The translations under genes and the position numbers were made by a program. 64,000 nt of DNA from Daphnia pulex (lineage: Eukaryota; Arthropoda; Branchiopoda; Diplostraca; Daphniidae), in the NCBI RefSeq assembly GCF_021134715.1, contig NC_060020.1:930001-994000 (forward strand), read 5' to 3'. Shown piece after piece: positions 11,399 through 62,462 of this stretch. A model generated the notes under the pieces. The model worked only from the letters and a program-made list of their open reading frames with translations, had not been told where the DNA came from and ran no database searches. Numbering within the stretch: the first letter of the stretch is position 1; every line of letters begins with the position of its first letter.

Positions 11399-11815
11399 AA
11401 TTTATGATACATATTTCGAATCACTTTTTATTCATGACCTTAAATTTTTCATGACCTTAAATTTCTTTTAATATTGAAATACACTTGAACGTATGAAAAC
11501 CGATTTTTCGAAGATTTTTTCAAACAGAACTGGAAAAATGTTGCCTAATAGCGCAGCCAACAGTTTTTGGTTGCTGAAACCTATTAGTGGTTTTCCATTT
11601 TTGTGCACCGCGAAAGAGTCCACGTAATAGTTGTTCATTCTCCGCGGACTAAAGTCCACTGTTTACCCAATACCTCCACATATGTGTTTATTTTATGCTG
11701 ACGTGTATTAAAGTAAAGTAAACGTAGCTGTCATTCGTTGTAAGATACGACCTTCGGGTATTTCCGTAATTGGTCGGCAAACGTTGAGGCGCACAGTCTC
11801 CTGCCTTTCTTTAAA
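11399..11815. other. Intergenic: P450 3' end and nucleobindin promoter region
   Basis: No coding exon is supported. An open frame on the minus strand at 11468-11659 has no recognisable content. The 3' end of the P450 transcript and the promoter of the next gene must both lie within these roughly 400 bases. Confidence 0.5.
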
Positions 11816-14235: not shown

Positions 14236-14774
14236 TGACATAAATTAATTGCATTTCAATTATCAAACAAATTGCTTGTCTTATAATATTTTACGAATCG
14301 ACGAAAATACAATTATTAAAACAAATTTCAACCATTTTTTAAACAAAGTTTCTATAATAAAAGAATAAATAAATAAATAAAAATTCTACAGTGAGCTGAA
14401 ATAATTCATTTGTTATATATCATTTGTTTGAATATTGGTGGTCATAAAGCATGGCAATAATGAATGGAATCTCAAGGCGCAGTTGATAGCAAACAACTAA
14501 TAAAATTTAGGAAATAGACTTAGAAAATATCAAAATAATAAAAAAAAAGGTTTGGAATAAATAAGGCAGGAATAAAGTAGCCTAGTTCAATTTCCATCCA
14601 TTCCCTCCCAACCCCAACCCATTACATGTCGTCCAGTACGTTCGTACCTATATTGCCTTAATGGTATTGCAACGTCGCATTCTGCATTCATTTTACTCTT
14701 TTGAGAAAGTCGAGGGGGACTGGAGAAAGAGTCCGCAGCATAAAACCGTTTTCGGAGCAACTGCACAAGTCAAC
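14236..14774. terminator. Nucleobindin 3' UTR with polyadenylation signals; endosulfine promoter
   Basis: Very AT-rich. Overlapping AATAAA signals lie at about 14355-14385 and again near 14555-14575, consistent with alternative 3' ends of nucleobindin. The remainder before the endosulfine start at 14775 has no coding content. An in-frame upstream ATG at 14661 could extend endosulfine, but the extension does not look like the family. Confidence 0.55.
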
Positions 14775-15525
14775 ATGGCTAGCGAAGAAAGTTCGACCAT
14801 TCCCAAGGAAAATCAAGTCACTCAATCCAACGAAGAAACCGAAACCATGGTAATTGCAAATCATAGATTTTGGTTTTACATAATTGATCTATTAGTAACT
14901 CGTGCATGTCGTTTTGCTCGTGTAAACATGTCTATGCTGCACGTATGTTTACTTTACATGCTCTCTTTTTTGGTTTTTTTAAATTGTTTGGTCATATTGT
15001 GATTTTGTTGAAATCAGTATGTTCAATTTATCTTTTGATATATTTCATAATAGGCTTCTCAAAGGGATATTGAGAAATTGGAAGAAGAGAAGTTGAAAGC
15101 TCGTTACAATGCCCGCCCTGTAACTGGACACTCAGCATTCTTGCAAAAGAGACTTGCCAAAGGCGTAAGCAAACTTTTTTTTTATCTAAAACAACTAATT
15201 TTGTTATTGCTTTTGGCTGTGTTTTGTGTTACTTTCCATTGTGCAATAATATGAGAAAGTTTGAATGCAATCTGCCAACTGAAATGTTTTACCAACTAAT
15301 TCTATTTCACTTATAATTTTATTGTAGCAAAAGTACTTTGACTCTGGAGATTACCAAATGGCAAAACAAAAAGGACCAGCTAAAATACCAACTGCAGCAA
15401 CAACAGCAGTAATCCCACCTGCCAATCTTGGACACCCAACTGGGGATGCCATTCCAACTCCGGAATCTGTTCCTACCAGGAAAACATCCATCATTCAGAG
15501 CAAGTTGGCAAGTCCTGCTATGTAA
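14775..15525 (+). CDS. ENSA: Alpha-endosulfine / ARPP19, PP2A-B55 inhibitor
   Basis: Three exons: 14775-14849, 15054-15164 and 15328-15525. They sum to 128 codons (127 aa), the usual family length. Phosphorylated by Greatwall kinase, endosulfine inhibits PP2A-B55 and allows mitotic entry. The diagnostic motif [12 protein letters not shown] is intact, including the Greatwall-target Ser. Upstream is the conserved helix [13 protein letters not shown], and near the C terminus RKTS is a likely PKA site. The ATG at 14775 was chosen because it gives a family-like start (MASEESS). The gene ends tail-to-tail with DET1, 363 bp apart. Confidence 0.95.
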
Positions 15526-15888: not shown

Positions 15889-17601
15889 TTAAATGTGACG
15901 AACGTGAAAATTGACTACATATTCGGAATTGGTTCTCTGAACACTTATGGCAAATGGATCTGTTGGATGAAACGTGAAAGCAACAAGGCGACGGGCAGAA
16001 GAAGGCGGAGCTGGCCGGCCAAGAATACCAGCATAAATGCGAAACCGCAGCAGTCCAGATTCACGGACGTAGAAACGAATGGGGTGCTCTCCACTAGTCT
16101 TTGGACGCTCCATGAGCGAAACCCATTTATCGTCATAGGAAAACAGCTGCAAATCAAGGTAAGGCGAAGAGGAATAGGATTGTGCTGAAATGGGAAGTTG
16201 TGAAAGAAGTCGTTTTGTGGCTTCCGTCTGCCCACCAAAGCGAGCGCTGACAATGGTCTGCTTGAATCGTTGATGAATGACGTTTGCAAATACGTTGCTG
16301 GACGGTGATCCTTGTGTTGCGTTGCGTAGTAAATCGCAAAAGTTCTCGAACAAGTTCAGTAGTTCCTGACTTGTGTTTTCATAGACGTTAATAACCTGTA
16401 AAACAATAATACGTGGGATTAAGTTTTTTTCTTTTAATTATAATCAAGATACCTGTGCGTTTTCCATATTGTAAACGACAAAGAAGGCCGGTTGCGTATT
16501 TGGGTCTGGAGCTCGTAGTGTAACCACATCTTCACTAGCATATTTCAGAAGCAAATGTGACTCATCCAACAACTGCATTTTCCAGATTCGGAGTGCGCGA
16601 ATGTGATCAAAGTTCTGATAGAACTTTCGTACGTGAAAGAGATTCCCTTCGGCTTCAGCCATGTTGATTGCTCGTCGGTAGAGAAACACTAGTAAACGAT
16701 GCTTGAGCGCGTTGACAGTTGCCTCTCGAAACGGACGAACCAACTGACCCGAAGGCCAAAGTCCCCGTACTTGATTGATTAACCATTCGTCATCGTCGAA
16801 ACAAAATCGACCTATAGTTTTTACATCAGCAAAATAGCCATCGTGTGAAATTTTAAAAATGTGTATCGTTTGATGCTGGACAGAGAGAACTGCTAGAGTG
16901 TCTTCATACAAGTAAAGTCCTTGGTTGTGTGAGAGAAAGATTTTGTCGGTCTTCATTGTTCTAGTATCACAGAGCCTTCCATTGACGATGTCAACGATGT
17001 GAAGTGAGCAATCTTCTAGTGGAGAACGAGGATGAGGAGATACGGATTCATTATTACGGAAAATATCAAAAAAATTTGGCTGGGGCTCTTCGGGAACGTA
17101 CGAGGCTGAACCGACAATAACAAATCTTCCGTCACCGACAAAGAGACTGCATTCGCGATTTAGTTGTTCACCAACAGGAGTTACAGCAATAGTATGCTTT
17201 AACTGGAAGAATTTAGAAAATACTTTACTTCTTAAATTTACAGCTTCATTGGTATCATTTCCAACAAACTCTCTCGTTCCTGGAACATCTGTAAGTAAAT
17301 CTTCTACTGCACTTGGTCCAAGATATTTGTAAACTTCCACTGAAGTTTGATCTGAAGAGAATGCAATAAAGTACTTGCCGTTGGGTGTAAATTTTCTCAA
17401 ATAGCATGGTGGCTTTTCTATGTTGACAATTGTAAAATTTGGGACAACACTTTGATAAAATGATCGGCAAATGTGATAGTTTCCGGGTTTGACATGAGTC
17501 TCTCGACGAATCAGTCGAATTACAACATTCTGCGAGGGAATTTTTCTAGGAGTCAACTCGAACTCACCATGGTCAGCCTGTCTATATTTGGGGTTCATCA
17601 T
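15889..17601 (-). CDS. DET1: DET1 homologue, CUL4-DDB1 ubiquitin ligase component
   Basis: Two exons on the minus strand: 16453-17601 and 15889-16395. They sum to 552 codons (551 aa), nearly identical in length to human DET1 (550). DET1 works in the nucleus with DDB1, DDA1 and COP1 in CUL4 ubiquitin ligases. Conserved family segments are seen along the whole length: [83 protein letters not shown] and [19 protein letters not shown]. Few introns compared with its neighbours. The gene is head-to-head with CDK7 (300 bp between start codons) and tail-to-tail with endosulfine. Confidence 0.96.
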
Positions 17602-17901
17602 TTTCAGAACCTTTTTTATTACTCGGCATTTTTACTACGTATCTGCAATTCCCATTTTATTCGCCGTGAATTTTAGAAGTTTCAGATTTTTAGTGATAAA
17701 GCACATGTGAAATAGAACTGAAGCAGGTTTGAGATGTCAAAATCCGAAACATTTTGTAGAACAGATCGATCTAGCGGTGGTAATAGAAAGATAAACAATA
17801 GTTTTTCACGCCACCTGTTGACGAGTGAAATTCCATTTTAAAATAATCGTTCTTGACGGGTGATTAAAAGTTGAAAGAAACTTTGAGTGTATGAATGAAA
17901 A
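17602..17901. promoter_or_regulatory. Shared upstream region between DET1 and CDK7
   Basis: Only 300 bases separate the two divergent start codons, so both promoters and 5' UTRs lie here. I see no TATA box suited to either gene. A single bidirectional promoter is an inference from spacing. Confidence 0.55.
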
Positions 17902-29014: not shown

Positions 29015-30545
29015 TTAATATGACAGGCGAGGGCAGCTTGAGTAAAGTTCAGTGCAATTTGCGCCGGAACGGCCCATCATCGCCGCATCCATGTATGAAC
29101 TGAATCCACCAGTGTGGCGCGTGTGCAACAGGTAGCTCAAAGGCAAACTGTAATGAAAGATAAGTAAAGTTACTGAGACCTTATTAATAACGTAGTTCAA
29201 TTTGAATTCGATAAATACCTCGACAAAGAAACGGCCCATCCAGCTTGTCCAGGTGCTGCCATAGCTAAGCGATTCATACGACATAAAGTCTCTTGGGTAC
29301 AGGCGGTGTTTTCGAGCGCAGCGTCCTGCTCCCATAATTCATGGACCATACTCAACCAAGTGGGACCGTCCAGCAACACTGTAGGGATACAATTAAAAAA
29401 AACCATTTAGATGTAGTGATAAATAACTGGTTGTTTTGTCAGATACAAGAGTTAGTTTGCACGCTAAGGTCTGGGGATGGCCATATAAAACGTTTACCGT
29501 CAGAGAGATCGTTATCATCTATGCTGCGCTTTCCAGCCGCTGTTGTTGTTGTCGACCGAACGTATAAAAAGAAGGCCAATAGACCCAATAATCCAACCAA
29601 TAAAATGGGCAAAAGTTTGTTCTGCTCTTGACAACAAGTTTCGTATCCTCCATAGCTACTTCCTCCATAGCTGCTGCCTCCCCCATATCCACCACCTCCT
29701 CCATACCCCCCCCCACCTCCACCATATCCCCCACCTCCCCCGTAGCTATCACCCCCACCCCCGCTGTAACTTTCACTGTAACCTCCGTCCCGATCATTGT
29801 AACCGGATCGAGTGCTACCCCGTTCGATTGCAGGGTCTTCGTAAGCCGGGCTGGATCCATACGCGTCGCTGTGGCGATCCCGTTGTCGGTAATTGTCGCT
29901 CGTGTCCGGAGTTGCCGGTGCGTGGTAAGAATCGGGATCGTTGTAACGCTCATTGAGCCGGTTTCGTTCGTCTTCTTTGTACCGCTCGTTGACTCTACTT
30001 CGATCGTCGTCATTGTAAGGATCGAGCCGATTTCGGTCGCTGTCGTAAAAATCGTTGCGGCGGCTGAATGGACGCGTGTCAAACGAACTGCCGCCAACGG
30101 CACGGGCCGCCGACTCTTCGGGAGGCTCTGCTACATCGTAATCGTCTGCCGATCGTTCACTGGTCGTCCGGAGACCGAGGATGCGGGGATCGCTTAGAAT
30201 GCGCTTGGCCAACTTGCTGACAACTTTGAGGACATCTCCACTAATACAATCGCCATTCGAACAATAATCGGAGAATTCGCTACGCGCTACTCGGAAATTT
30301 CGACTGTTGAGTTCTTTGCCAGTGCCGACATCAGACATGGCAAGGAAGTCGCCACTTTCCGCTGGTTTATTCTCGGCTGGCCGTTCGTCACTTTCAGCTG
30401 CTGGCGGCCGTAAAGTAGCCGTGACACCGTCGGTCATGACAAGCATCCGTGATGAAAGCATGACGACGAATACTGCAGCCACGCACCGATGAAGGCTTCT
30501 TCTGCGTTGCAGTGTCTTCGACGACACTCTCGACGGTCGAGACAT
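29015..30545 (-). CDS. Unknown membrane protein, Gly-rich, with DM4/DM12-like C-terminal domain (cluster member A)
   Basis: Three exons on the minus strand: 29498-30545, 29219-29378 and 29015-29147. They sum to 447 codons (446 aa). No named homologue is recognised. Seen: a hydrophobic signal-anchor (CVAAVFVVMLSSRMLVM); a helix of the cluster type (LKVVSKLAKRILSDPRILG); a long charged Arg/Asp/Asn/Tyr segment; a Gly-rich tract (blocks of GGGGYGG); ETCCQEQ; a membrane helix (LLPILLVGLLGLLAFFLYV); STTTTAAGKRS with a dibasic site; then exons 2-3 with CTQETLCRMNRLA, WAVSLSRLPLSYLL-like text across the junction, and the ending CTELYSSCPRLSY. The cysteine spacing and the C...Y..CP ending resemble the arthropod DM4/DM12 family. 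An acceptor before 30598 suggests a 5'-UTR intron. Function unknown. Confidence 0.75.
29660..29800 (-). repeat. Low-complexity Gly/Tyr/Ser-rich coding tract
   Basis: Within exon 1 of cluster member A, imperfect repeats of GGGGYGG and GGSSYGG are encoded by runs of C-rich triplets on the plus strand. Such tracts are prone to length variation. The tract lies on the N-terminal side of the CC pair and membrane helix. Confidence 0.7.
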
Positions 30546-33500
30546 GTCGAAGGATCGACTTTTTAAAAAATGAGCGCCAGTGAGTTCAAATCGATTATCT
30601 AAAAAAAGGCGGAACACTTTGAAATTTAAAAAAGTGAAGTATCAAAAACAAGCGCCCTGAAGTATGAGTGTGCTATAAAACTTGATGAAAGGACGATTTA
30701 ATTCAATGTCGACCGATCACCATGGCAGCTGAATGCCAACTGACGGTGCAAGTGAATCTCTCTGGGAGAAAGGGAAGACCAAGTGTCGAAACACTTGCAA
30801 GGTATTACGAAATTTGTGGGCAGTCTAGAAGTAAAAGAAGAGCCGCCCCTCTCAACTGTCTGGAGGAGGCGTTGCTAAACTTCTTCGACAAGCGGAGGAG
30901 TTTTCTTCCCCTCCGGAGCAGGTCGATGACCACTAGGCTTGACTGGACCTTGACAGGTATCACCCGAACCATATGTGGTTTCAACACGTAGCTAGCAGCA
31001 TCAATTGGATCCACAGTTCAGAGGAATTTACGGTTCATTTCGAAGCCCATCAAATTCATTCAAGAAAAGTATAAAAGAAAAGAAAAAAGAAACCCGTTAG
31101 TTCCCATCTCAATCATTGCAATTTGCCGCTGGTTCCGTCACACAAACTTCGCGTGATAAACTGTAGCACTCTAATTTTCAAATTGGACGAATGCTCTCTT
31201 CATCGTACGTTAGCCTCTGAACCATAACAAAATCGCATAAATCAGAATGTTGTTTCACGTCGGTTTTCTTTTATGGTATTTCTTTTTATGTGCAACAAAA
31301 GAGGTCAATATCGTTCTGAAAGGCTAAGCTCCAGGCGGCACAAGATTCCGACAGAGCCGGAAAAGTTCAACATCCTTGTAGTTGCTCAACACGCATGACA
31401 AACGACTTTAATTCACGACCCGCTGGAGGAAAAGGACGCACAGGATTATTAGTTTTAACATTTAAAAAGATTCATTCCTGTATAGGTAAAGTGCAATACG
31501 TCCCAGTCTGCTTAATACAAGTCAGCGCTTGACTTGCACTGGCGTTATTATGTCTAAATATGCACGATATCCATCAAAATAATGACAGGTGAACATATCA
31601 ATTGGGGGGGGGGGGGGAACAGATGCGTCAGAAAAATTAACTATATATGAGTGAATGATGGTTATTACCCACTCGTTACATATGCTAATACCCCGTATTT
31701 CTTACGTAACGAGAAACCGACATGCAATATCATAAATGTATAACAGATTGAAAAGAAATGGCTCGCGATAGAACAGGTTTACAATAGCCTCGAGTATACA
31801 AACTCCTCCGATCACGAAAATGATTCATTATACCGCACCTAACTAAGTAAACCATTATTCCCTCTTGGCTTCCAAGGCTGGACGGTGTTATTAGGCCCAA
31901 TTTTTCTGACAATTTGCGGGTTTTGTGCAAATTTTAATTTAGATCTGGTCTGTTCAGGGTGGGCGTAATCAAATTTGAAGAGATGAAAAATTTGATGTGG
32001 AAAATAATACTCCCGATCTGTTCAGCGGATCGTGAGTGCTGGCGATTAAACCGCTTTTATCGTTTTTGCAGTTTGGATTTAGGGAAGGGATCAATTTTCT
32101 GGGGTGGGGGGGCAGTCGAGGAATCGATTATTTATTTTTTGGGGGAGGGGTCTTACCGGGAAATTATATACCAAAGAAATTTTATTATTTTCAACTTAAA
32201 CTTATTCCCTCAACTTATTCGGTTATCGTTTTGAGCTGTTTTTGATTTTGAGGGGGAAGTTTGATTTTTTATCATTTTTTATTTCTATCGATATCGCATT
32301 AATCGTAAGCATGCTGATTAATAATAAGAAGATTGAACAAGTGTCGTCTGCAGTTTGTCATTGAGTTTTGAAAGTGAGGCCACGAAGCATATGCCAACAA
32401 AGTTTCAGAATATAAAGAAAACTGAACGATATCTCTTTTGAAAACGTACGTGGCTGCACGAAATAATAATTTAAAAAAACAAGAACAAATCAAATTACGA
32501 AAATGTGATCGTCTCGTGTGATGTGTCTGGTCTCTGGTGTCGTAGCTCTTCATGCTCTCCACTCGATGCTTTTTGGCGGGTAAATAAAACTTAGAATAGA
32601 AATGCCATGATTATATGGGAGTCTAATTAGTAAAGTTAAACCTGTTCTAAATTTTTGAAATGCTAGTTCCTGTCTAGCACATACAAGCCTCCTGTTGATG
32701 TATGGCATTTTGTTTGCACCATGTAACCTTTTTCTTTTGTGCAGATTTGAGGCCATCGTAACAACATGATTCACAAGTTCTACTTGTGCTGAGTCGGTCA
32801 TCAGTCTGTCTGTCTCACCTGTTGTCACTAAAAAACTCTGAACTGCCACTTAGGTAATGTTTTTGGTTACTATTATTCCTGCATGACCTGCATCTGCTAG
32901 ATATTTTATTGGTGAATTACCTGTACATCAAGGCAGTGTATTACATTTAAACCTTAAATTGATCCATTTATTAATAATTAGAGTTTACCCAGTGTCTCAT
33001 TTTAACTTTTCCTGACTTGTTGTGGATGTTGTTATTCTGTCAATAATTTTTCGTAACCTTTTTTTTTATTTCTATTTAGACAAAAAGCATCCCATTGTAT
33101 TGAAAAAAACTACCGATGTCAATCGAGTTACGCATCGCTCTTTTCCCCCTTTCTTTCAATGTTCTCGTGTACGCCCATGTGAATATGGGTGTATTCACGA
33201 GGACACCCTTTTTACCCTATCCCGTCTGGTGTAATTCAGCTCTTCTGCGGATGGATGGAGCAACTGTAGGTGTATGGCTGTACTTCCCAGGCACAAAGGT
33301 AGGACAACATTTATCTCTATTCTTTCTTTTTGGCAATTTTTGGTAGCGTTCATTATAAATCGATCGTTAGTACAGACTACGTTTATTCGTGAGCTAGGCG
33401 GTTGACTACAACTGTTTTTTCTCTCGGATTTGTTTTTGTTTTTTCTCAGCATTAAAAATCTCAGTTGTCGAACGACTTGCGCAGATCAGGCCTGTTTTGG

Positions 33501-33818
33501 TACCTTACAACTTTTTCTGTTGAGTAAATCATCACATTTGAAAATATTTTAAATTGAAACACTTGAAGCAAAGTGTAACAAAACCATTTTTTTATCAAGA
33601 GGGATCTGCCGCCACCTCGTAGATTTTGGCAGAGGTCTCAGTCTCAATCAATCCCTCAAGAATTCAGTTGCTGGACAAGTTATTTCAACACTGAATACAT
33701 AAAAACGAACCGATCAATTCAACACTTTTGATGAGTTCAAAGCTAAGTCCTGATTTCTAGTCAACAACTGATTGCTATCAAATTTGCGATATGATTTTCA
33801 GTCGAACTCATATAATAC
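30546..33818. other. Intergenic or intronic spacer, no supported gene
   Basis: No coding exon could be supported on either strand. Contents: a TATAAAA at 30674-30680 followed by an 89-codon open frame on the plus strand (30722-30991) with no recognisable features; an uninterrupted G run at about 31603-31617; and further G-rich text near 32100-32150. If the alternative-first-exon idea for the neighbouring cluster holds, this whole stretch would be intron for members B to E. Confidence 0.45.
31603..31617 (+). repeat. Poly-G homopolymer run
   Basis: About fifteen consecutive G between an A/T flank and AACAGATG. Such long G runs are rare in the window and could form a G-quadruplex or mark an assembly-uncertain spot. 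Confidence 0.85.
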
Positions 33819-34287
33819 CTATATCTTCTTGCGAGAGAAGCTCTTCGAGAGAGAGGAGGTCATTCGATCTTCTTTTTCGGCGAGCCGCCACTGTTGTGGT
33901 ACTGAGCAGCTGGATCAAGAAGAGAAAGAGGAGGCCGAGGGAGATGAGCGAGATCAATCCCAGGTAGTCGTGTCCCTCATGGCAGCAGGAATCGTAGCCG
34001 TAGCTGTCGCCTCCACCGTAGCCATAACCTCCTCCATCGCGCTCCTTTTTCGGAAGAGCGCGGGAAGATGACGAGAGCCATCCGGCTCCTAGCACGTCGG
34101 TCGAACGCTTGATGCGCGGATCACTTCTCAGGATGCCCATTAGTGGTCGGACAAACACCAACATGCGTTTCAATTCGTTCTCAGAGTCTAGACTCGTTTG
34201 ATTGTTGGTACTGGCCTCTTGGCTCAGCGATCCCATCACGAGAAACAGGCAGATACTCAGCCCAACAAAAGCGCTTGATTTGGTCAT
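33819..34287 (-). CDS. Cluster member B: exon for signal peptide, Gly/Tyr tract and membrane helix; C-terminal exon not found
   Basis: One minus-strand coding exon of 469 bases (156 codons plus one base). It starts with a signal peptide (SAFVGLSICLFLVMGSLS), then the family helix ELKRMLVFVRPLMGILRSDP, KRS, a Gly/Tyr/Asp tract, DSCCHEG, a membrane helix (LISLISLGLLFLFLIQLL) and STTTVAARRKRRS, then an acidic tail. It reaches a phase-1 donor (GTATTA) right after 33819. Read through that donor, the frame stops within three codons (about 159 aa). No exon matching the Cys-containing domain is seen between here and member A. A TCAGT initiator-like motif on the minus strand lies near 34395. Confidence 0.6.
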
Positions 34288-35383
34288 TGTTATTTAATAA
34301 ATCACGACAGGAACAAGAAATAAACAACCGGACGATGGGAGAGAAACACAGAGCTCTACGATACGTGGAGAAACCGAAAAAAAATGAGAAGACTGAACAC
34401 TAGCGCTGCAGCGTTCAGTTCACTAAAGAATGACGGACATGAAGCGAGATTGGCAACTCCCTGGGAACGTATAGCGTTTGGCTATCTTGGTAGCGGGCAC
34501 TGCGTATAGGAATATCACGTCCAGCAGCGAAGTAAGTGTAAAGATAACTCCTCCTATCCAACACTCATCTTATGCTCCGCCTCTCTAAAAGGTTGCTGGT
34601 TCTTGAACTCGAATACCCTGGTTGAGTTCGTACCGTTATTATTTATAGCACGAAACGGCCAACAAAGAAAAATCAGACGAAATTCCAAGCGCGATCTTGA
34701 TGGAAATTAAAATGATAAAATCCAGTCCCTCCTATTGGCTATAATCAGTAACTTCATCATTGGACTAGTAAATATCTAGTTAAACATCAAAATACATACG
34801 CCCTTGTAAAAAAACAATTTTGCTTCTAGCCTCTAAACGCTAGTGATTAGACCCACCATCAATCACATTCCGGGATAGTGCCAGTTATCTTGTCGAGATT
34901 GTGCATCACGGCACGAGTTAACACTCTACAAGTAGCATATAATGTTGATCCAGCAAGCAGAATATACATTACGTACGTTGTCGGGAAAACCGCACACACG
35001 AGATACACAACGTATATGATGGTTTTGGAAAGCCTTCTGTAATTTCGATTTCTGCAGCTTTACACAAAGAAAGAACTGTAAGCGCGAAGAAATATCGGAA
35101 ACCCTTCGGTCACAGTCCGTTTAATGGTCAATGGTTCTCACGAGCGCACACCAGCAGCACTCGTCGTGTTCCATTCACCTTCAGTTTAACCGAACCCCGT
35201 CCAGCCGTGAATAGCGAATGGCTGAATGTACAACATTTTTCAAATAGTCAGCAGTATACACTTGTACACTGAAAACAGAACTCGTCAAAACTTTTGTACA
35301 GCACAAAGGCCCGCTCGTCCAGCTGATATTTAATAAATGACAAGTTTTGTAGGTAACGGGAAAATAACACAAATATAAACTAC
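34288..35383. other. Spacer between cluster members C and B
   Basis: Searched on the minus strand for a C-terminal exon belonging to member C and none was recognised. The part nearest 34288 presumably holds the promoter and leader of member B. The rest shows no coding signal. Confidence 0.45.
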
Positions 35384-35762
35384 CGTCATTATATGCTGTG
35401 ATGTCCGTCTCGCAGCAGTCGTTATCCGGCGTGACGGATCGTTTCCTTTTGCCACTCACTGCTGTGCTGGTGGCAAATGCCGCCACGAAGAGAACCAGAA
35501 AAAGGACGATGTTGATCACGATCAACGGCAGTAGCTTTAGCGGTAAATACAAACTGGGCACCTTTTCATCATAGTACACATAATCTTGGTCATAGTCCTG
35601 GTAATAAGTCTTGTCGGCCCTGTCTAACCAGGCAGAGCCGAATTCGTTATTTTCGTTCACGTCATCGTCGTACACGAACGTCTCCTTTCCGAGTTCCACC
35701 TTTTGGACTGCCAGGATGAAGACCAACAGCGCCGTAACTAGCACCAAAGACACTTTGTCCAT
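35384..35762 (-). CDS. Cluster member C: short, Asp/Tyr-rich variant exon with membrane helix
   Basis: One minus-strand coding exon of 379 bases (126 codons plus one base). Signal peptide (VLVTALLVFILAVQKVELG); an Asp/Tyr/Glu-rich segment in place of the Gly tract; a membrane helix (LLPLIVINIVLFLVLFVAAF); ATSTAVSGKRKRS with basic cleavage-like site; and a CC pair placed after the helix instead of before it. It ends at a phase-1 GTAGTT donor. Read-through runs on to a stop at 35181-35183, giving an ending that is unlike the family. An acceptor (TTCCAG) sits 5 bases before the ATG, showing a 5'-UTR intron. It is the most divergent member. Confidence 0.55.
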
Positions 35763-38127
35763 TTTGGCTGGAATAGAACTTGGTTCTCAAATTGACGAGC
35801 AAGTCGAAATCATTTTTCGCAAACGAATAACACACAGCACAACAAGCGCCAACGCTTTCCAATTACGTTCTGCGTATAGATTGCGATATTGGACGACAAA
35901 GCGACTAGACTGCCGCTTCGACACTGTCGACTGAAGAACAAAAACAAAAAAAAACCCAAAGAGTCTCTCAGCCGTAATAATCGGCTCTACCGCGCGCCAT
36001 ATACCAGGCTAGAAAAATATAATGGCTGAGAATTGATAATGATTATAGTATAAATAAGAATTTTTCTCTGCTGAAAAGAAAAGCCGTGCTACTACAGCAC
36101 GAGAAAAAAAAAAACATTGGGGGATAATAACGGGGTGTCACCACAAGTGTGAGTGTTTTTTCCTCATCTGTTGAGTTCTTCGCACCCACTTTGCTTTGGC
36201 GTCTCTTCTCTGTCCATAATAAGAGATACGAGATTTACATTACTATGGGTTTTTTTCTTAACCCTGCAGCTATACATTTCTCGTTTGTTTTTATCTCAGG
36301 ATATTTTTTTGTTTTCTCTCTGTGATGCAAATGGAATGTTCAGGGTCGTCTATAGCAACTCCACTTCAGTTATGTTTTTAGGCTATAACACGGAAGTAAT
36401 CCTAGTCGGAAAACAGCAATAGGAGTTATAGTGGTGGGCCACCAAAGTCGACGTGATTTTTCAACTCTATTCATGGCTTGTTGAGTATTTTATAAGCGTC
36501 TTCCGCTTTACGTTTTTCCTCTTGTAAAATTGTTCCGGTGTTTTTAAAAATAATTTCATCTGGCAAGCGGCAATTAAATGTGGGATGTATCAATCAAAAT
36601 GTCATTTCTTCAAAAATAAACAAAAGAAACACGGAAAACAAAAAAAAAAGAACATGTAAATCAAAAAGTTAAGCACCGCGATCAGACAGAAATGTCGAAA
36701 ACGTTAACCGTAAAAGTAAAAAGGAAGGAAAGTATAGCTTATATGATTTTTTTAAAGCTCCGTCGACGTTTTAAAAACTTTTGTTTCCTTCATCTCCGCT
36801 TTACGTTAAGTTAACCGAACGCTACCGCAAGGTATAAAATCCGCCCCACACATCAGCAGGGGATGCGCGTTCCAGCGACTGAACAACAAACATATCGGCT
36901 CTCTGCTTGGCTAACTATAGCGAAACATAAATGTCATTTTACGGGTGTTTCATTTTTACGAGTTTCCTTTTTCTTTCTACTCTTTTTTTCTCAAAAACAT
37001 TCTGACAGGTCGTCAGCTTAAAACACACAGAAAATGGACAAGGATCTGAACGAAAGTGCTTACGGGGAGTCACTTAAAATTGAGGGCAACGTACTCGTAT
37101 ACCTGTCAAATTCAGTCGATTTTTGAATGGCAAATGAACTTGGTCGGACTTCAGGAAAACTCAATGCAAAAAAAAACTTTAAAAAATGTGCTGGGCGACT
37201 GTTTATGAAAGGAGGCAGGAGGCTTGGGTAAAACGAATGATGCGCGATTAAGTGCGCATACAAGGCAGTGCGTCTCGATCAATTGATTTGATAGCTATAT
37301 CAGCCTAACCATATGTTAACACAAACGAGCCTGATTAACTGCGTGTTAATACAATTGGTATTTTAAATCGATCACTGGTATTTTGGATATTTTACGTCAC
37401 AAAGGATTACATTTGAAAAAATAGACGAAGATATTCTTATACGTGCACGAAGACATGAACGATCAAACTGAACTAAAAGTTTGAACGCGCAAGTCTCGTT
37501 TTATAAACGAACAGCTTATTACAAAGTTCTCGTAACCGCTTTTGTAAAAGTTGTGTTTTCATATTCTATTCTCGCCAGCTGACTGTGACTATGAATATGG
37601 CCAGTTAACACGCTATTGCACTAGCCATTGGGTAACGAGAAGAAAAAAAAGGCGAATACGCAACCCGCCGACGCTGATAGAAAGTAAAACCCAAAAGGAC
37701 AAAATGTCAAAGTTATTTTCAAAACGACGTCCCCTGCGATTATTTTGATCATCGTCCCAAGTGTAAATAGATTGAATTACAAATCGTTGTCTTATCGTGC
37801 GCCGAAATAACCAGTTATATAAATTAGGCCTATATAGCATATTTGTTTGCTGGCATATACAGACTATAGTTTTGGGTATATAGCGGTCTATGCAACAGGT
37901 GGTTAACCGACCATACATTAACTATACTACCGGTACTATGTGGCCAACAATTGTTTGAATGTCTCAATAATAGAACAAAATGAGATGATATAGTAATAAT
38001 ACAATGTGTAGGGCCTAAACACTTTCAACAGATGGGCATTATCAAATCAGATTCTTGTGAGACATAATATGTAGCAGCAGGTGGCTGTTCACCACATCAC
38101 CAACAAAAATTCAACAAATCGCCTTAC
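35763..38127. other. Spacer between cluster members D and C
   Basis: About 2.4 kb with no recognised exon on either strand. Contents are AT-rich with scattered short open frames. A minus-strand TATA-like sequence (GTATATGG) lies near 36003, about 240 bases upstream of the member C start codon, and could belong to its promoter. Confidence 0.4.
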
Positions 38128-38683
38128 CAATATTTTCATCATTAATGATCCAGTTGTCTTGGTCGTCGCTATTGTCGTCTGAGCGCTTATTGCGCGCAGC
38201 AGCCGTCGTCGTCGTACTTGCGATCACGATCAAATAGAGCAACAACCCTGCCAGCCCAAGGAGAGCCAGCAAGGGCAGCAAGTCGTCCTTTTGCTGGCAG
38301 CAGTAACCTCCGCCACCGCCACCGTACCCGTTTCGATCAAATTGATCGTAACCATTGCGATCCAAATTGTAGTCGTCGTAATATGGGTCAACGTACTTTC
38401 GCTTATTATTTTTACGAGCGGCAGCAGCAGGGGGCAGAGATTGGTTTCGACTGCCAGGATTTCTCCTCAGGATCGCCATCAACGGGGTAACGAATTTCAA
38501 CAACTTTTTGAGCTGACGCTCAGATTCCAGTTCATCGTCGATCGTCGTTTCGACTTTCGCACTGTCTTCCAACTTGTCGGTGACCTCTAGCGATTCATCG
38601 AATCCGTTTTGGCCACTAGTCGGATGAGAAACGATGATCAGAGAACACACTAGTCCCATCAAAACAAAAACTAATTTCTTCAT
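38128..38683 (-). CDS. Cluster member D: signal peptide, Gly tract, membrane helix exon
   Basis: One minus-strand coding exon of 556 bases (185 codons plus one base). The start at 38683 is chosen because it opens directly into a signal peptide (MKKLVFVLMGLVCSLIIVS); an upstream in-frame Met at 38758 would put 25 residues in front of it. Then the family helix QLKKLLKFVTPLMAILRRNP, an Asp/Tyr/Asn segment, a Gly run, YCCQQKD, a membrane helix (LLPLLALLGLAGLLLYLIVI), ASTTTTAAARNKRS and an acidic tail. It ends at a strong phase-1 donor (GTAAGG). No C-terminal exon is recognised downstream before member C. It is the closest relative of the complete member F. Confidence 0.65.
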
Positions 38684-39202
38684 TTCTGTTTTTCTTTTCA
38701 CACCGCCGATATTGGAAAAAGTTCTACTAATTTGTTTCGCCAACTGCAGAAAATTCACGTGATGTTTGAACTGCTGATATTGTCACGAACAAACCGAACC
38801 GGCGTTGCAATCGTCCAGCTAGTGAATGACGGCCGAGGCATTTACAGCAGTGGCCAGCAGCAGCGGCCAGCAGCAGCCTCTCGTACGTCCCATAGACAGC
38901 AGCAATTACTATCAGGTCTATTGTAACGGGTTTCCTACTTCTTTGCAGCGGTATCCTTTTTTTGACGACTCCGCCTCTTTTTCATGCGTGAATCCCGTAT
39001 ACCTGCCTTATTCTTATATACCTTCCCACTTATTGTAGGCTACATTTAAAGTGTCTTTTTTTCGCTCGTTTACCCACGCGGTCATTGTGCAACTGAATCT
39101 GTATCGGTATTACAACTCATTGGCAATCCTACACACACTCAGCAGCCCCGTACACTGGACACATGAAAATTTCAAAGGAATAATAGTGAATAAATCACTT
39201 AC
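38684..39202. other. Promoter and leader region of cluster member D
   Basis: Contains a probable 3' splice site (TTTCTGCAG, minus strand, near 38746) for a 5'-UTR intron of member D. There is no room for a separate C-terminal exon of member E other than in this 500-bp gap, and none is recognised. Confidence 0.45.
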
Positions 39203-39731
39203 TTTCTTCTTCCTCTTTTGCCGATGTGACCATCCGGCGACGGCGTCCGCTGGTGACGGTGGCGTTGAGCAGAAAGAGAAGTGCATAGGAGACGGCCACT
39301 AGGACGAAGCCGGGTACGACGGTGTGAAAGTCCAGCTTGTCGCAGCATCCTGCGTAACTGCTGGAAGACGATGATCCTTCGTAAGAATTGCTTCGCGTTA
39401 TTTGTCCGCTGATCATCGATCTCAAATTTTGCATGCGGAGCTTGAAGTCCTCTCCCATCCGGCTGACTTTATTGCCCATGCCGTAAGAAGACGGTGGTCG
39501 CTGAGGCCTAGGACCGAAAGGCTTGTCGAATTTCTCATCGAATCTTTCTTGGTTGTACTGGTCGAATTCGTCCATCTCCCGGTCTTGTTGTTGATGGTCG
39601 CTAAACGGATGTTGATAGCGCTGCTGGGATGGAACTTGCCTGTCCATCTGCCCGTGAATTACCGTCACGACAAGAGCCATGAGAAAGCAGCAGTCCAGCA
39701 CCCGGCTCCGACGACGAGTGTTAAAATTCAT
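39203..39731 (-). CDS. Cluster member E: Gln-rich variant exon with membrane helix
   Basis: One minus-strand coding exon of 529 bases (176 codons plus one base). Signal-anchor (VLDCCFLMALVVTVIHG), a Gln/Asp/Arg-rich segment, the family-like helix FKLRMQNLRSMISGQI, a Ser run, AGCCDKLD, a membrane helix (VVPGFVLVAVSYALLFLLNA), TVTSGRRRR and an acidic end. It stops at a perfect phase-1 donor (GTAAGT). Upstream, an acceptor (CAATAG ending 39752) and a donor-like CAG/GTAACT near 39930 outline a 5'-UTR intron. Read-through of the donor closes after only a few codons. Confidence 0.6.
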
Positions 39732-42700
39732 TCTCCGATTAAAATGAAAATCTATTGAAATTTGTGACAGCTTGATTGATTATATGTCTTGTGATAATAT
39801 AAAACAAATAAAGCAGTTTGTACACGAAGTGTCAGATGACGGACGTGTTGCGTCAATGACCTGCCTATGTGACAGCAAAAACAAAGATAGAACCAAAATA
39901 TAATACTGAAGAGACAGTCAAATGACAGTTACCTGGCGAGCGCTCTTTCAGTGCACAGTGGCTCGGTCGGTGAGAGACTGGCAGGATATTCCCATCTTCC
40001 AGTGCTGGGCTGCAAGAAACAGCTTGCATCGTAGTTCCCTTAGCGAACCAGTCTTTCTTCTCTTTTAATAAAACATTTTATTTTTCCCCCGCGCTTTAAA
40101 AACATCGCTACTAGGCAGTAGGTTCGGCAACGTCCATTTCTCCCGCCTTTTCACGTCTCGCTTCAAATACAAGGAGATGGGTAATTCCGTGCTGCATCAG
40201 GCAGCAGTCTATTTTGTGATATTTCGCCTGGTAAAGGAAATACGATCACTAAGACAGCGACCTGAAGCGTTGGCGCAGCATAACGGCCAGGTATAACGGG
40301 ACGACGACGACGGGAATTCACGTGTGATGATTGCGCCGACTGACAGCAGCAGGAACTCGGAGGGAATCCTCTGATTGCCAACTCTTTTAGGAAATAAAAC
40401 AAATGAGTTACCTGAACGTTGGCGAAATGTGAAACTAGCGGAATGATGCAGAGCCAACATTTTTACATCGTTATTAGCAAGACATAATTTGATGCTATTT
40501 AAGCTAACTGTATCGCACTGCACGAATTCATCTTTTTCATTGCAAATGACATTTTCCCGTCATCCTACTTATTTGTTATATTGTAATCCCTTCACAGCTG
40601 TCGACTCATTTATCATCAACCAATATAAAAACATGAATATATTCGTGTAGGGATGCTCGTCCTTTGTCCATCAAACACTTTTCGGCTTATAGAACCCGTT
40701 ATGCGACATTGGTATGTAATAACAGACGAGTAATATCAACCGAAGCGAATAACCGCAGGATTTTTTTTTCCTTTAAGGTTGCGCTTCATTTTTCGATTTC
40801 TCAACGAAAATAAGGACTGCGTTGCTTCAAGGGTGGTTTCTGAACGAAGTGACTTCAGCGGGAGATCACGCGCAATGCACCTGCTGCCACACTTGGACGA
40901 TTTATAGGGAACCTCTTCACGCGGACTTCTTTGTTGTGGTAGAAGCGATTCGTCATGATGCATTCCGTTTCAGCGTTCACCAGCAAAAGTGTGAATAAAG
41001 ATGGTTGTATTTCAGATGTTGGAGAAAATAGTACACATCTTGTGTAGATGACCAAAAGGCAGATGTTCCGACAGAATTTCCTATGTCTGACACTTTTTAA
41101 CTCTTTAATGCTGCAGTGTCGAGATAATGCCTACGGTACTTGTGCTCCGGGCAACTTCAATTATATAATGTGACGCCTGGATGTGTTATTCAAATCTCAA
41201 TTAACTCAATATTTAGAATATTGTGTCGCTCGCGGTTGACGTAATTATCAGCCTTAGGTTATACTTATAACCAGATTATCTTTTCTTGTTTTTCTACCGG
41301 GATTTGCCAAACGAATAATTTGTAAAATCTTGTATCTTGGCTGTTGATCCTGTTCAACTAATAAGAACCGCTTTATAATTTAAAAATAAGGCGAATGGAC
41401 ATTTATTTATCCAACAATTTGGCACATGCAGCCTGATTGTTTCTTACATTTTCTATAAAGAGTATGCCACATTTAGTACGCATACTGTTCATGTGCCACA
41501 GGGAATTAACATTTACTAATTCAATTTAAGTATAGCCGGTACATAAATAATTTCGTTTCCTTAGATGTTGTCTAGCTGCAACATATGTTCCGTTTTGTAT
41601 GCACGATAGTTAATAAGAAGTTGAGTAACTAATATAGGTTCCCTACCTGGCGTGAGATAGTATAAAGCCTGAGTAAAGCAGTCGGTCGTCATCTCCTGCG
41701 GCAACTTTGTAAGTTCATCCTTGTCTCCGTGTGTTATACTATACCTTTAGGTGTACGCTATATGCCGATAAGCTCCGATGTTCAGGCCATTGACTTCTTA
41801 TTTCTTATGGGCTGTAATCTGCTGGAAGCGAACCTGAAAGCTAAATACGTCGGGTGAACTTTTTATGAAATGCTGCTGAGTAATACACTGGCACAAGAGA
41901 GATTTGTTTTGAAACGCGACTGGATTTCGAAATGTACGCGCGTCTGTGAAAACGCTTCAACGCCAAGGGGAATGTGCGACAAACTACCGAATCGTCGAAC
42001 ATCACGTATTATGCCTGGTAATACGGATATAACGGTCCCAACAACAATTCAAATTTTTCCGCCAGCGTCGACAGTTGAACCTTATTGATCCACGTTGTCC
42101 AGCAGAGAGCCAGAACTCGTGAGTAGGAAAAATAAAAAAAAAACCCTCAAAAAATACGGTTTTACAAATTAAAGAGCGAATCACAATGAAAAATCCCGTT
42201 GTGCAGCACTCTCAGATTCAGTCGACAGCATCAAACGGTTGCATAGTGATTTACAACTTTCAAGACTTATAATAGCAACATATAGGCCGCTCATATTATT
42301 GACGTCATTATGCACGCTGCTGTGCTCCTATATGTGTCCCGCTCCCGTTAACTCAGACGCGTCCAACAATCTAAAAAAAAAACGTGTTGAAATGGATGGA
42401 TGGATTTGGTCATGCAAGATTAGCGGGAGGCATTGCGACGGAACGCCAGCGTGAAAAGATCTTGGCCGTCAACTCGTTCAACACCTGTCTGTTGTTTTGC
42501 ATTTCCTCGTCTGTAGATTCGAAACAAATGATGCATAAAGTAATTATTCGTATATTATATACTTCATTTTTATTGTCAGCTTTGTTCCAGCACAGAGATG
42601 TTAAATTTTGATTAAATATGGACGGTCCGTTGTCAGCGCTTTGTTTTTTTTAATATCTCTTGTCTTGCTGGACTGAATAATAAACTAATAAAAGAGGAAA

Positions 42701-43947
42701 GGTCCCACATCAGTTAAATGGGATTGGAACATTTGTTGATGCTGATTGCTGCCTGAAGCTTTATCTCGTATAATAATCTAGCACTCATAGTTCGTTGGAC
42801 AATGGAGTGCGGTGTCAAGTTTTAACAAATACAAACTGTTTTACAATCAAATCCCGCGCATCGTTGATCAACCGTCACATTCACAATAAATTATATTGAC
42901 TATTTCGACTATTTAAATAAACTCCACATCTCAATAGTATAATAGATTGGTGGTAACTCGCTCGAGTGATCCTTAATAGTTCTGGATGATGTATTGTATT
43001 TATACATGCAACGATTTTAAATCCCCACTTAAAGCGGTTAAGAGACGCGTACATATTCCCTTCTAAAGAATTCGCACATAAATCTTATTTCTGGGAAACC
43101 CTAGCTATATAGCTACCATTTCATTTCCGTTATGTCATTTTTTTTTAAGATCCAATCTAGAAAGAGCGGGGATTGACATGGAATAAATGTTATACATTTA
43201 CATCTTCCTTGTAGGCTATATTTCGTCTTGGTTCTTATTGCCTTCTCATGGTAAGACGACCATACAACATTTTATGTATGCAGTTATATCGTTATATCAA
43301 AAGACTTAAAAAAATTTAGTTGAATTAATGACATTGTAAGAATGTTAAAAATAACGTTTTTGAACATTTAGTATGCATAATTTTACATCCCGTACTAAGA
43401 AAATGAAATATTCTTTGAGATGATATTATAAACTTTAAGTCATCTGTTCAAGTTATATTGAAAACGTATTAAAATTATGTAATGTGTAGCATGCGCATGC
43501 TGCATGCGATGGCAGCTAATAGGTTTTATCATTTATTTTATATCGCTTCGTATTTAAAACAATGGATGTTGAAGATGAGATAATTTATTTTATTTTGTTA
43601 TTTGTTCCCAAACGCACAGTGTATTTGTGTACCACAGCACTACTCACTTCATTTAATATCCCCTGATAACAGGTAACACTTTAACTGTGTGTCATGTTCG
43701 CTTTGTGCAACATGTTATCCCCATCCTTAACCCTAGTAAAAATAAAATAAATAACAAAAATCAACATAGAACGTCACATACTAAAGTTAAAGATTTTGCT
43801 GATCAGGATCTTGAATGTCGAATTGTCGATAACGAAATTTGGTTTGTGCTATTACATCTTCGAAATTTCAAAAATTTGTAATATGATATTGTAACATTTT
43901 GTCTGCTACGAGGTAATAGCATACGAGAATTTTGAATCTTTTGAAGC
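39732..43947. other. About 4.2 kb spacer with no supported gene
   Basis: Holds the leader and promoter of member E near 39750-40000. Beyond that only short open frames without recognisable content are seen, in AT-rich DNA. No repeats longer than homopolymers stood out by eye. Confidence 0.4.
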
Positions 43948-45670
43948 TTAATTAAGGCGCGTGCAGCTACTGAACATGTTGCTGCAGTTTTCTCCATAGC
44001 GGCCCATTAACGAAGCGTCCAAATAAGTCAAGAAACCGCTCTGATGTCTGTGATGGAGCAAGTAGCTGAGTGGAACACTGGACAAGGAAACGGCCAAGCC
44101 AGTCGATCCAGGTGAGCTGAGGGCCAAGCGATTCATTCGGCAGAGGGCTTTAAGAGCGCAAACGTCGCTGGCTTCATCCTCGCCAGATTTCCAGAGCTCA
44201 TCTACCATTGAAACCCAGGTGGGGGGATCCAACAATTCTGCAAAATAAAATCAACGTATTACGTATTACGTAGGGAAAATCCGAAGCGTTATTATGCTAT
44301 ACGATTTCATTTGCTTGCAACCGAATTTCATTGAGTTGCGAAAAGGAATGTGCATATAATAGACAGCTCTCTGCTTGATGCCAAATTCCGACTAATTTTG
44401 TTGTTCGATCCCCATAGGCAGGAATCTCTCTTGGCGCGATGGAGCTTAAAAATGTACTAGGGAGTTCAGGTCAGTGCTCCTCCTCTTACCTGCCGGATCT
44501 GCGCTTAACTTTGCAAACCACATAAAATATATTCTATTTTCTTTTGACACTGACTTGTAGATGCCTGTAGTGCAAAAACCCAACGGCCGAACAGTCATAA
44601 TATACTAACCTTCCGACACAGCCAACACTGTTGGTAATAACGTTTCACGCTGTAACGGGACAAAGCTCAATAACAAGACTACGTCAATATAATTTCCTAT
44701 CAGCTATCGACTAACGACTATAACGAGGCTGGGAAATATATTTCCTTGATTATATGAAAGCAATATCCTCCGGTCTTTTTCTGAAAGAAACTTAATCTTA
44801 TTGCTGACGATATAGCTATTAAATTGGTGATTTATGTACCGCCTTTTTAACCGTTATATCCGTCAAGTGTGCCACCCCTCATCATCCGATGCGCATTACA
44901 TACCAATAAATATGAAATAACTTACCGATGTCAGGCTCAACATTTTCGTCGTCTATTAGATCGTTGTCATCGATCGATCCATGCGATCGTTTTTTTATTC
45001 GAGCTGCTGCGGTTGTCGTCGTCGTGGCGATCGCAATCAAATAGAGAAGTAATAGAGACAGTGCTGTCAAGGCAAGAATTGGTAACAGATCCTGCAAAAT
45101 AAATGTCACATCAATTAAAATAAAGCTGTTAGTTCAAGACGATGAGATAACTCTTACATCCTTTTTATCACAACAACCGTAACTTCCACCGCCACCACCT
45201 CCTCCGTAACTTGAGCCCGAAGAATAGGAGTCGCCATATCCGTATCCACTACGATCGGGCTGTATTGGTTGAGATGAAGACTTGTACATTGGTCGCCGGC
45301 CTGAACCTCGCTTCCGGCCTTCTTCCACCATCTTCATGAGCGATGAATTAAAATCTTCGGTACCATTGAGTTCATCGGGATTTATTTCTGCAGAAAATCG
45401 TTTTTGTCGCGTCGCTCCCGATTTTGTTTTCTGTTGCTGAAAGATGGCCATCAATGGCGTGACAAATTGAATCATTCTCTTCAATTCGAGCTCAGACTCG
45501 AGGTTATCTTCTATTTCTTCTACGTCGTTGCTCGGCCGTTCATTGTTAGAATTAAATGCCATAGCTGCTGACGGTTGTTCAGCTTTATCCCACGACGGTT
45601 TGGTCGCTTCGTCGGCTATGAGAATCGCCAACAGACTAAACGCAGTGTACACGGCAATGAACTTGTTCAT
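43948..45670 (-). CDS. Cluster member F: complete Gly-rich membrane protein with DM4/DM12-like domain
   Basis: Three exons on the minus strand: 45158-45670, 44926-45091 and 43948-44237. They sum to 323 codons (322 aa). Signal peptide (MNKFIAVYTAFSLLAILIA); family helix LELKRMIQFVTPLMAIFQQQ; a basic segment; a Ser/Tyr/Gly tract; GCCDKKD; a membrane helix (LLPILALTALSLLLLYLIAI); ATTTTTAAARIKKRS; an acidic stretch; then the C-terminal domain with LLDPPTWVSMVDELW, CALKALCRMNRLALSS, SVPLSYLLHHRHQ, GRYGENC and SNMFSSCTRLN. Unlike member A, this domain is in one exon, and an extra intron splits the CC pair from the membrane helix. An acceptor 14 bases before the ATG shows a 5'-UTR intron. Function is unknown. 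Confidence 0.75.
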
Positions 45671-58232: not shown

Positions 58233-59263
58233 TTATTCCGGGATATCATTTTTACCAAATTCCTGATTGACTAAAATACTGGGATTCGTGTCCTGTCTGT
58301 TATTGTCACTTGGAGTACCAGTATCTTCCTGTGAGGAATTGGCGTCTTCCGTTCCATCTTCATCCACCGGTCCCTCGTCTTCATCTTCTTCCTCTTCATT
58401 CTCTTCATCAACGCTGTCGTCGTCCATCACATCAAGTCCCGAGTGTAAGTAAATTGTTTTCTTCTCAAAACCTTGCTTCAGTGCAGCAAGTCCCTTTCTT
58501 TGAATGTCTTTACGACATACTAAACTGTTCAGACTGTCTTTTAATAAAGTCAGTCTAGCATTGACTTCACTCAGAGCTCCCAACGTCTCTAAAATTTGAC
58601 TATCGGATTCTTGTTGAGTTTGTAGGGCCTCGACGTTGGATTGCCTTTCTCTGAATCGATCTTCCCACACTCGAAATATGATTGCCGCGGCGTCGAAAAC
58701 AACCCACCAGTTGGAAAAAAGGATGTAATAAACATATAAATTATTCCCTCCTGTTGAGTTGAAAAGTGAGGTAAAAGCTGCCATGAATTTGTCAACGGCA
58801 TCAATATTAGATCTGGAGTTCAAAACATTGGAAACTCCTGTCAGTACATCGGCAAGCTTGTCGATGCCGATGCCGATCACTGATTCAATAAGTCGCAACT
58901 CTTTTTCTTTGAATTTGGCGCCTTCAGTTGATTTGCGAACTGACGTTTTATCGACACTTTTGTCTGTGCGCCAGCTATCTTTAATAAGTTCTGAAATAAA
59001 AAAAACAAACATCTTAAGTTTATGTGACATCCAATAAAGGGTAATTAAAAGTGAATTTAATTGTGCTGTTGACTGCAGCAAATTAAAGAATTCATTGATA
59101 TTCATTGAATAACTTTTAAAGAATTTATACCTTTAGGCACAGCGGGTAAGTTCAATTGCTGAGGGCTCCGTAAAGAATTAGGAGCAGCGTGAGTCGGAAT
59201 GACGATGTGAGAGATCCATGACGTGAGAAGTAGTCCCGTTATAAAATAAATTGGGACAGTCAT
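58233..59263 (-). CDS. Unknown secreted helical protein with acidic tail, copy 1
   Basis: Two exons on the minus strand: 59131-59263 and 58233-58990. They sum to 297 codons (296 aa). No homologue recognised. Signal peptide (MTVPIYFITGLLLTSWISHI); a basic linker; a helical core (RLIESVIGIGIDKLADVLTG, MAAFTSLFNSTGG) that includes a moderately hydrophobic stretch (YILFSNWWVVFDAAAIIF); a coiled-coil-like region (RQSNVEALQTQQESDSQIL); then a tail made largely of Asp/Glu (ENEEEEDEDEGPVDEDG) ending in a Ser/Asn/Asp segment. The start at 59263 opens the signal peptide directly. Copy 2 at 61439-62462 is nearly identical. Confidence 0.75.
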
Positions 59264-61438: not shown

Positions 61439-62462
61439 TTATTCCGGGATATCATTTTCACCAAATTCCTGATTGACTAAAATACTGGGATTCGTGTCCT
61501 GTCTGTTATTGTCACTTGGAGTACCAGTATCTTCCTGTGAGGAATTGGCGTCTTCCGTTCCATCTTCATCCACCGGTCCCTCGTCTTCATCTTCTTCCTC
61601 TTCATTCTCTTCATCAACGCTGTCGTCGTCCATCACATCAAGTCCCGAGTGTAAGTAAATTGTTTTCTTCTCAAAACCTTGCTTCAGTGCAGCAAGTCCC
61701 TTTCTTTGAATGTCTTTACGACGTACTAAACTGTTCAGACTGTCTTTTAATAAAGTTAGTCTAGCATTGGCTTCACTCAGAGCTTCCAACGTCTCTAAAA
61801 TTTGACTATCGGATTCTTGTTGAGTTTGTAGAGCCTCGACGTTGGCTTGCCTTTCTTTGAATCGATCTTCCCACACTCGAAATATCATTGCCATGGCGTC
61901 GAAAACGACCCAAAAGTTGGAAAAAATGTAGTAATAAACATATAAATTATTCCCTCCTGTTGAGTTGAAAAGTGAGGTAAAAGCTGCCATGAATTTGTCA
62001 ACGGCTTCAATATTAGATCTGGAGTTTAAAACATTGGAAACTCCTGTCAGTACATCGGCAAGCTTGTCGATGCCAATGCCGATCACCGATTCAATAAGTC
62101 GCAACTCTTTTTCTTTGAATTTGGCGCCTTCAGTTGATTTGCGAACGGAAGTTTTCTCGACATTTTTGTCTGTGCTCCAGCTATCTTTAATAAGTTCTGA
62201 AATAAAAAATCATCTTAAGTTTATGTGACATATCCAACAAGAAGTAGTTAATTAAACGTGAATTCAATTGTGCTGTGACTGCAGCAAATTAAAGAATTCA
62301 ATGAATACCAACTTTCAAAGAATTTATACCTTTAGGCACAGCGGGTAAGTTCAATTGCTGAGGGCTCCGTAAAGAATTAGGAGCAGCGTGAGTCGGAATG
62401 ACGATGTGAGAGATCCATGACGTGAGAAGTAGTCCCGTTATAAAATAAATTGGGACGGTCAT
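61439..62462 (-). CDS. Unknown secreted helical protein with acidic tail, copy 2
   Basis: Two exons on the minus strand: 62330-62462 and 61439-62196. They sum to 297 codons (296 aa), the same exon lengths as copy 1. Differences from copy 1 are few amino-acid changes (for example YYIFSNFWVVFDAMAMIF in place of YILFSNWWVVFDAAAIIF), with the reading frame and splice sites intact. Both copies therefore look functional. The acidic tail is identical except for one residue near the end. Function unknown. Confidence 0.75.

Follow-up and report, generated by a model that had tools for sequence, protein, structure and literature searches.

Multiple variable first exons are described for the vertebrate UGT1, GCNT2 and clustered protocadherin genes, and the source presents the organisation of Ugt1, Gcnt2 and Ugt2a as vertebrate-specific (PMC1885805); in the case of UGT1, a promoter is placed before each first exon (PMC3325998). 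In arthropods, the chelicerate sDscam genes are reported, on the basis of RNA-seq and 5' RACE, to use alternative promoters and to join tandem 5' cassettes to constant exons (PMC4835542). The DM4_12 domain, described as being of unknown function, is carried with four conserved cysteines by the planthopper proteins Osiris 17 and 24, and no obvious Osiris homologues are reported for crustaceans (PMC12825958).

Organisation of the Locus

The window is the 64,000-nucleotide stretch C4:930001-994000 of the Daphnia pulex genome, of which 133,188,837 bases in 13 contigs were searched. It contains a cluster of six genes (A-F), all on the minus strand, with related modules composed of a leader, a membrane helix and a dibasic site, and with a phase-1 GT donor at the end; signal peptides and membrane helices were called by eye from the sequence. 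The locus is probably a UGT1- or protocadherin-like array in which E, D, C, B and A are spliced to exons 2 and 3 of A, F being a separate transcription unit, a conventional gene that has a C-terminal exon to itself. In the open-licence PMC literature, covered through titles and the starts of abstracts, no paper was recognised as describing this cluster.

A first-pass annotation had described six single N-terminal exons, all ending at a phase-1 GT, a second exon of A starting at 29378, and exons for the C-terminal domain in A and F only, B, C, D and E having none in the gaps behind them. The exon-end sequences confirm that all six ends are real and leave one base of the split codon; the start of A exon 2 is borne out and its acceptor is of phase 1; the restriction of the C-terminal-domain exons to A and F agrees with the outcome of searching the genome with the C-terminal exon of F as query (E up to 10): the six matching stretches fall in four loci, namely A, F and the two corresponding loci of a second cluster. 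The description as single exons stands for the five exons A-E, but the N-terminal part of F is made of two exons separated by a 66-bp intron. In the window, E, D, C, B and A are tandem homologous first exons on one strand, located upstream of A exons 2-3.

Elsewhere in the window, two near-identical minus-strand open frames with an acidic C-terminus (58233-59132 and 61439-62209; 299 and 256 aa between stops) are probably the result of a recent tandem duplication.

Gene A, Gene F and the DM4_12 Domain

The first exon of A (29498..30545, 349 codons and one base) codes for a leader, a Gly/Tyr-rich tract, CC, a membrane helix, a Thr/Ala stretch and KR, and ends in gacG/GTAAAC, where the slash marks the exon end. 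It is followed on the minus strand by exon 2 (29219..29378), the proposed first common (constant) exon, and by exon 3 (29015..29147), the proposed second common exon, which carries the stop codon. Gene F consists of exon 1 (45158..45670), exon 2 (44926..45091, with the phase-1 donor atcG/GTAAGT) and exon 3 (43948..44237), a private DM4_12 C-terminal exon, all on the minus strand. The presence of introns differs between paralogues, as the 66-bp intron of F (window 45092-45157) has no equivalent in its counterpart F'.

The tails of F and F' pass the DM4_12 (PF07841) cut-off of 22 with 23.3 and 25.5 bits, respectively, and by its tail F is a DM4_12 protein. The open frame of A exon 3 reaches 14.8 bits, under the cut-off, and A exon 2 read alone has no Pfam match; the A tail is 57% identical to the F tail, and A is very probably a DM4_12 protein. 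Genome-wide, the domain gives 19 matching stretches, distant ones included, none of which lies in the gaps behind the orphan exons. Three of these matches are found within 4.4 kb (C7:2736178-2740534), and in two of them stops interrupt the matched stretch; the group might serve for comparison, as a cluster in which each gene has one domain.

DUF1676 gave no match at E <= 10 in the 14 translated parts scanned, a set that excludes F exon 2, E' and the assembled spliced proteins, and as far as scanned neither F nor A appears to be an Osiris protein. NCBIfam gave nothing at E <= 0.01 for six parts, and the other Pfam matches (YxzE, GRP and several DUFs), all under their cut-offs, were taken as composition matches. 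No relatives of the F tail were confirmed in the viral and prokaryote collections, and a fold prediction of this tail, based on two sequences, was unusable (mean pLDDT 46.8).

The Orphan First Exons

B (33819..34287, ataG/GTATTA), C (35384..35762, gacG/GTAGTT), D (38128..38683, attG/GTAAGG) and E (39203..39731, gaaA/GTAAGT) are minus-strand orphan first exons that end in phase 1. Scored with a donor-site matrix, B, C and F' have donors of only moderate strength, at the 87th-94th percentile of all GTs. Further first exons were sought in the genome with D, E and C as protein and with B as DNA, A, F and G' (an exon of the second cluster) not serving as queries; the protein searches found nothing outside the two clusters except a weak match of C (E = 0.47).

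The case for C as a member of a shared-tail array is weak, because no counterpart was found in the second cluster and because its frame stays open for 67 codons beyond the donor. It is conceivable, if doubtful, that C alone is a longer single-exon gene whose frame runs on past 35384 to 35181, a reading compatible with the others discussed here: the open frame would add 67 residues, several of them cysteines. Against such an extension, a phase-1 GT stands at a place that agrees with the layout of the other exons, and the gap between C and B has no similarity to the DM4_12 tail.

A Second, Paralogous Cluster

Genome searches with B and with the F tail revealed a second, diverged cluster on the plus strand of the same contig, about 0.76 Mb away (C4:1734818-1746872). 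In piece coordinates, which equal C4 positions minus 1729000, it comprises the first exon of G' (5818-6064), F' (8682-9321, with its tail at 9844-10133), E' (12912-13443), D' (13782-14337), B' (14860-15388) and A', with a first exon at 16121-17420 followed by A2' (17513-17672) and A3' (17740-17872). The order E'-D'-B'-A' is kept, with a single tail, located at A', and B', D', E' and G' each lack a private C-terminal exon. G' is an extra member without an obvious signal peptide by eye; neither the window nor its flanks of 10 kb yielded a partner for it.

Relative to the shorter protein, the reciprocal partners are 59% (A/A'), 64% (B/B'), 52% (D/D'), 64% (E/E') and 57% (F/F') identical, against 19-48% for first exons that are not partners; these clear reciprocal pairs argue that A, B, D, E and F most likely predate the split of the two clusters. 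All six first exons of the second cluster also end at a phase-1 GT, which brings the count over the two clusters to 12 of 12 donors and fits a common acceptor at 29378. The introns proposed for the array would measure 4.4-9.8 kb in the window and 2.1-4.1 kb in the second cluster, versus 66-688 bp in the complete genes.

E' is readable only if a 72-bp GT-AG stretch (C4:1742046-1742117), lacking in E, is taken as an apparent intron, since E' otherwise contains stops; recent intron gain has already been a subject of work on Daphnia (PMC4202315).

The Gaps behind the Orphan Exons

A profile of four C-terminal sequences, run in the three forward frames of the eight orphan gaps, gave nothing below E = 0.68, and a permissive tblastn of the A and F tails against both strands of these gaps gave nothing below E = 1, in accordance with the first reading of B, C, D and E. 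By comparison, individual tail exons used as queries against the second cluster hit both their counterparts and the other tail type with E values of 5e-17 or better.

Each orphan might instead be spliced to a short private 3' exon of its own, coding for a few residues and too short or too fast-evolving to be recognised. Such exons would explain the conserved donors equally well, and several AATAAA/ATTAAA signals are indeed present in the C-B (three), B-A (ten) and G'-F' (six) gaps. On the other hand, no such signal occurs in the E-D, D-C, D'-B' and B'-A' gaps, and the sole one in the E'-D' gap, which measures 338 bp between the E' donor and the start codon of D', comes 58 bp behind the donor and so leaves no room for even the shortest intron seen here (66 bp). 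Moreover, a conserved 3' exon was not found in three gap pairs compared by tblastx and blastn: the strongest conservation, in a 64-bp stretch before D and in stretches of 27 and 37 bp before A (E 3e-6 to 1e-6), precedes the next first exon and is promoter-like, these being the stretches with E below 1e-3; the remaining blastn matches are of 10-15 bp with E of 0.02 or worse, and the gaps behind D, which lead to C in the window and to B' in the second cluster, share an 11-bp match only. Several private exons, all unconserved, would have to be assumed, and this explanation is decidedly unlikely. A depletion of poly(A) signals in the orphan gaps was considered and rejected, as eight were seen versus 10.2 expected and 81 of 300 shuffles were as low (pooled orphan gaps, leaving aside the G'-F' gap and an interspersed repeat); the difference is not significant.

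Donor Conservation and Selection

The first exons of A, B, D, E and F are under purifying selection: dS ranges from 1.12 to 1.65 over the five pairs (dN 0.24 and dS 1.27 for A) and dN/dS is about 0.2 for B, D and E as for A and F. The tails are more constrained, with a dN/dS of about 0.05, both for A2-A3, which jointly share 93% aa identity with A2'-A3' (dS 0.77), and for F exon 3 compared with the F' tail (dS 1.49). The dS of A2-A3 is below that of F exon 3 and of the first exons, a difference that gene conversion or extra constraint might explain.

The donors of B, D and E lie at the aligned homologous base in both clusters; those of D and E are identical to their counterparts, and B' has GTAATG in place of GTATTA. 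In the pooled ungapped comparison of B, D and E with B', D' and E', 38 of 54 bases are identical over the last 18 exon positions, as are 16 of the 18 bases at +1..+6 (B 4/6, D 6/6, E 6/6), versus 19/54 at +7..+24 and 9/54 at +25..+42, i.e., 28/108 beyond the donor (Fisher, +1..+6 vs +7..+42, p = 5e-7, or p = 1.6e-4 when the GT is omitted). The same pattern is seen for A and F, in which the donors have to function: 5/6 and 4/6 bases, respectively, are identical at +1..+6, compared with 6/18 in either pair at +7..+24. Since the donors of D and E at least, and probably that of B, are under selection, the B, D and E exons are most likely spliced to something.

The same comparison bears on another alternative of the first-pass annotation, in which B-E are truncated, intronless paralogues ending a few codons after an old donor that persists as a relic. 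In B, D and E the frame does meet a stop after 3, 5 and 2 read-through codons, respectively; nevertheless, the positions of the stops have changed in all three pairs and the read-through tails are unlike between the copies (B GII and B' GNAEKCFS; D GKAIC and D' GKVIYAYQIRKKIVLSIKN; E SK and E' SKSIFRQKF), while the donor bases are kept at a dS above 1. Truncation is thus disfavoured to the point of being highly improbable. That the orphans are joined in trans to the DM4_12 tail of A, F or the second cluster is hardly credible: the single phase of the 12 donors and of the A and F acceptors would allow it and nothing in the sequence forbids it, but splicing in cis suffices, as E, D and B (and C) share their strand with A exon 2 and precede it, an arrangement found in both clusters.

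Candidate Promoters and an Interspersed Repeat

Candidate core promoters precede D and A on the minus strand. The candidate of D (38795..38829) has an initiator-like TCATT with +1 at 38827 and GGTTCG at +28, recurs with the same spacing upstream of D', and lies inside the conserved 64-bp stretch (E 3e-6); that of A (30709..30743) has TCAGT with +1 at 30741 and GGTCGA at +28, is the same in A', and lies inside the 37-bp stretch (E 1e-6). Judged against a core-promoter consensus, the combination of an initiator-like TCA[GTC]T and a downstream element at +28 is restricted to A/A' and D/D', that is, to four of the 12 first exons.

The motif GG[AC]GGAG, on either strand and within 400 bp upstream, accompanies nine of the 12 first exons (not C, E and E') versus 30 of 392 overlapping background segments, a motif that was spotted before testing in paralogous promoters that are not independent. 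In an open ranking of 3231 7-mers, CTCCTCC is first and AGGCGGA second, with p about 1e-5 each, uncorrected.

The B-A gap also contains an interspersed, transposon-like repeat of about 1.5 kb (32150..33640, minus strand). It matches 74 stretches of the genome, 40 of the 677 candidates having been scored, and a related copy lies between F' and E', so that its position differs between the clusters. The longest noncoding match between the clusters, about 32150-33615 with piece 10519-11805, was considered as a conserved regulatory block (a moved enhancer or an RNA gene), and this reading was rejected because the match is the interspersed repeat with its 74 matching stretches and because the whole window has no Rfam match at gathering thresholds.

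Proposed Mechanism and Comparison with Known Systems

Among the explanations put forward in the first-pass annotation, alternative first exons are the best supported: the B, D and E donors are kept, unlike their read-through stops and the gap sequences, and the search behind the orphans of both copies revealed no private C-terminal domain. Since A exons 2-3 are the only tail found downstream on the same strand, in both clusters, a layout with variable first exons is the best explanation; the idea of a shared tail should be restricted to B, D and E, and perhaps C, as exons joined to A exons 2-3, and does not extend to F, which has its own tail.

In the proposed mechanism, each of the five first exons E, D, C, B and A would have its own promoter and would encode a leader, a membrane helix and a basic site together with a variable tract that is in many cases rich in Gly and Tyr. 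The exon of the firing promoter would skip the first exons downstream of it and join, in phase 1, to 29378-29219 and 29147-29015, and these common exons would supply the DM4_12-like tail; the likely output would be proteins, secreted or at the surface, that differ in their N-terminal parts and have one tail in common. The long splices, the choice of promoter, the participation of C and any function are what we infer.

A more far-reaching picture is speculative and rather unlikely to be correct as a whole: in two old paralogous crustacean clusters, promoter choice would put different membrane N-termini on one DM4_12 tail and each cell would show one or a few of about five forms, which would make this another case of protocadherin-like first-exon choice in animals, of independent origin. 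If confirmed, the locus would represent an arthropod case of first-exon choice with shared 3' exons outside Dscam, in which two parallel copies hold the layout at a first-exon dS above 1; B-E would be wrongly read as short single-exon genes, and DM4_12 would gain a role as a shared tail.

With respect to DM4_12 proteins, including planthopper Osiris 17 and 24 as described, the proteins of this locus have in common a C-terminal DM4_12 domain, a leader and a membrane region; unlike Osiris proteins, they show no DUF1676 match in the parts scanned. The resemblance to UGT1, GCNT2 and the protocadherins, as far as these are described in the sources cited above, lies in tandem first exons upstream of one common set of 3' exons, here with one splice phase; the proteins are unrelated, and the first exons of the putative array number about five. 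Protocadherin and UGT1 clusters have more first exons than this. A promoter for each first exon is stated for UGT1 (PMC3325998) and only suspected in this cluster. The chelicerate sDscam genes, as reported, are similar in being an arthropod system of tandem 5' cassettes and constant exons (PMC4835542); their cassettes encode Ig domains and generally consist of two or four exons, whereas those described here are mostly single exons that code for an unrelated membrane module.
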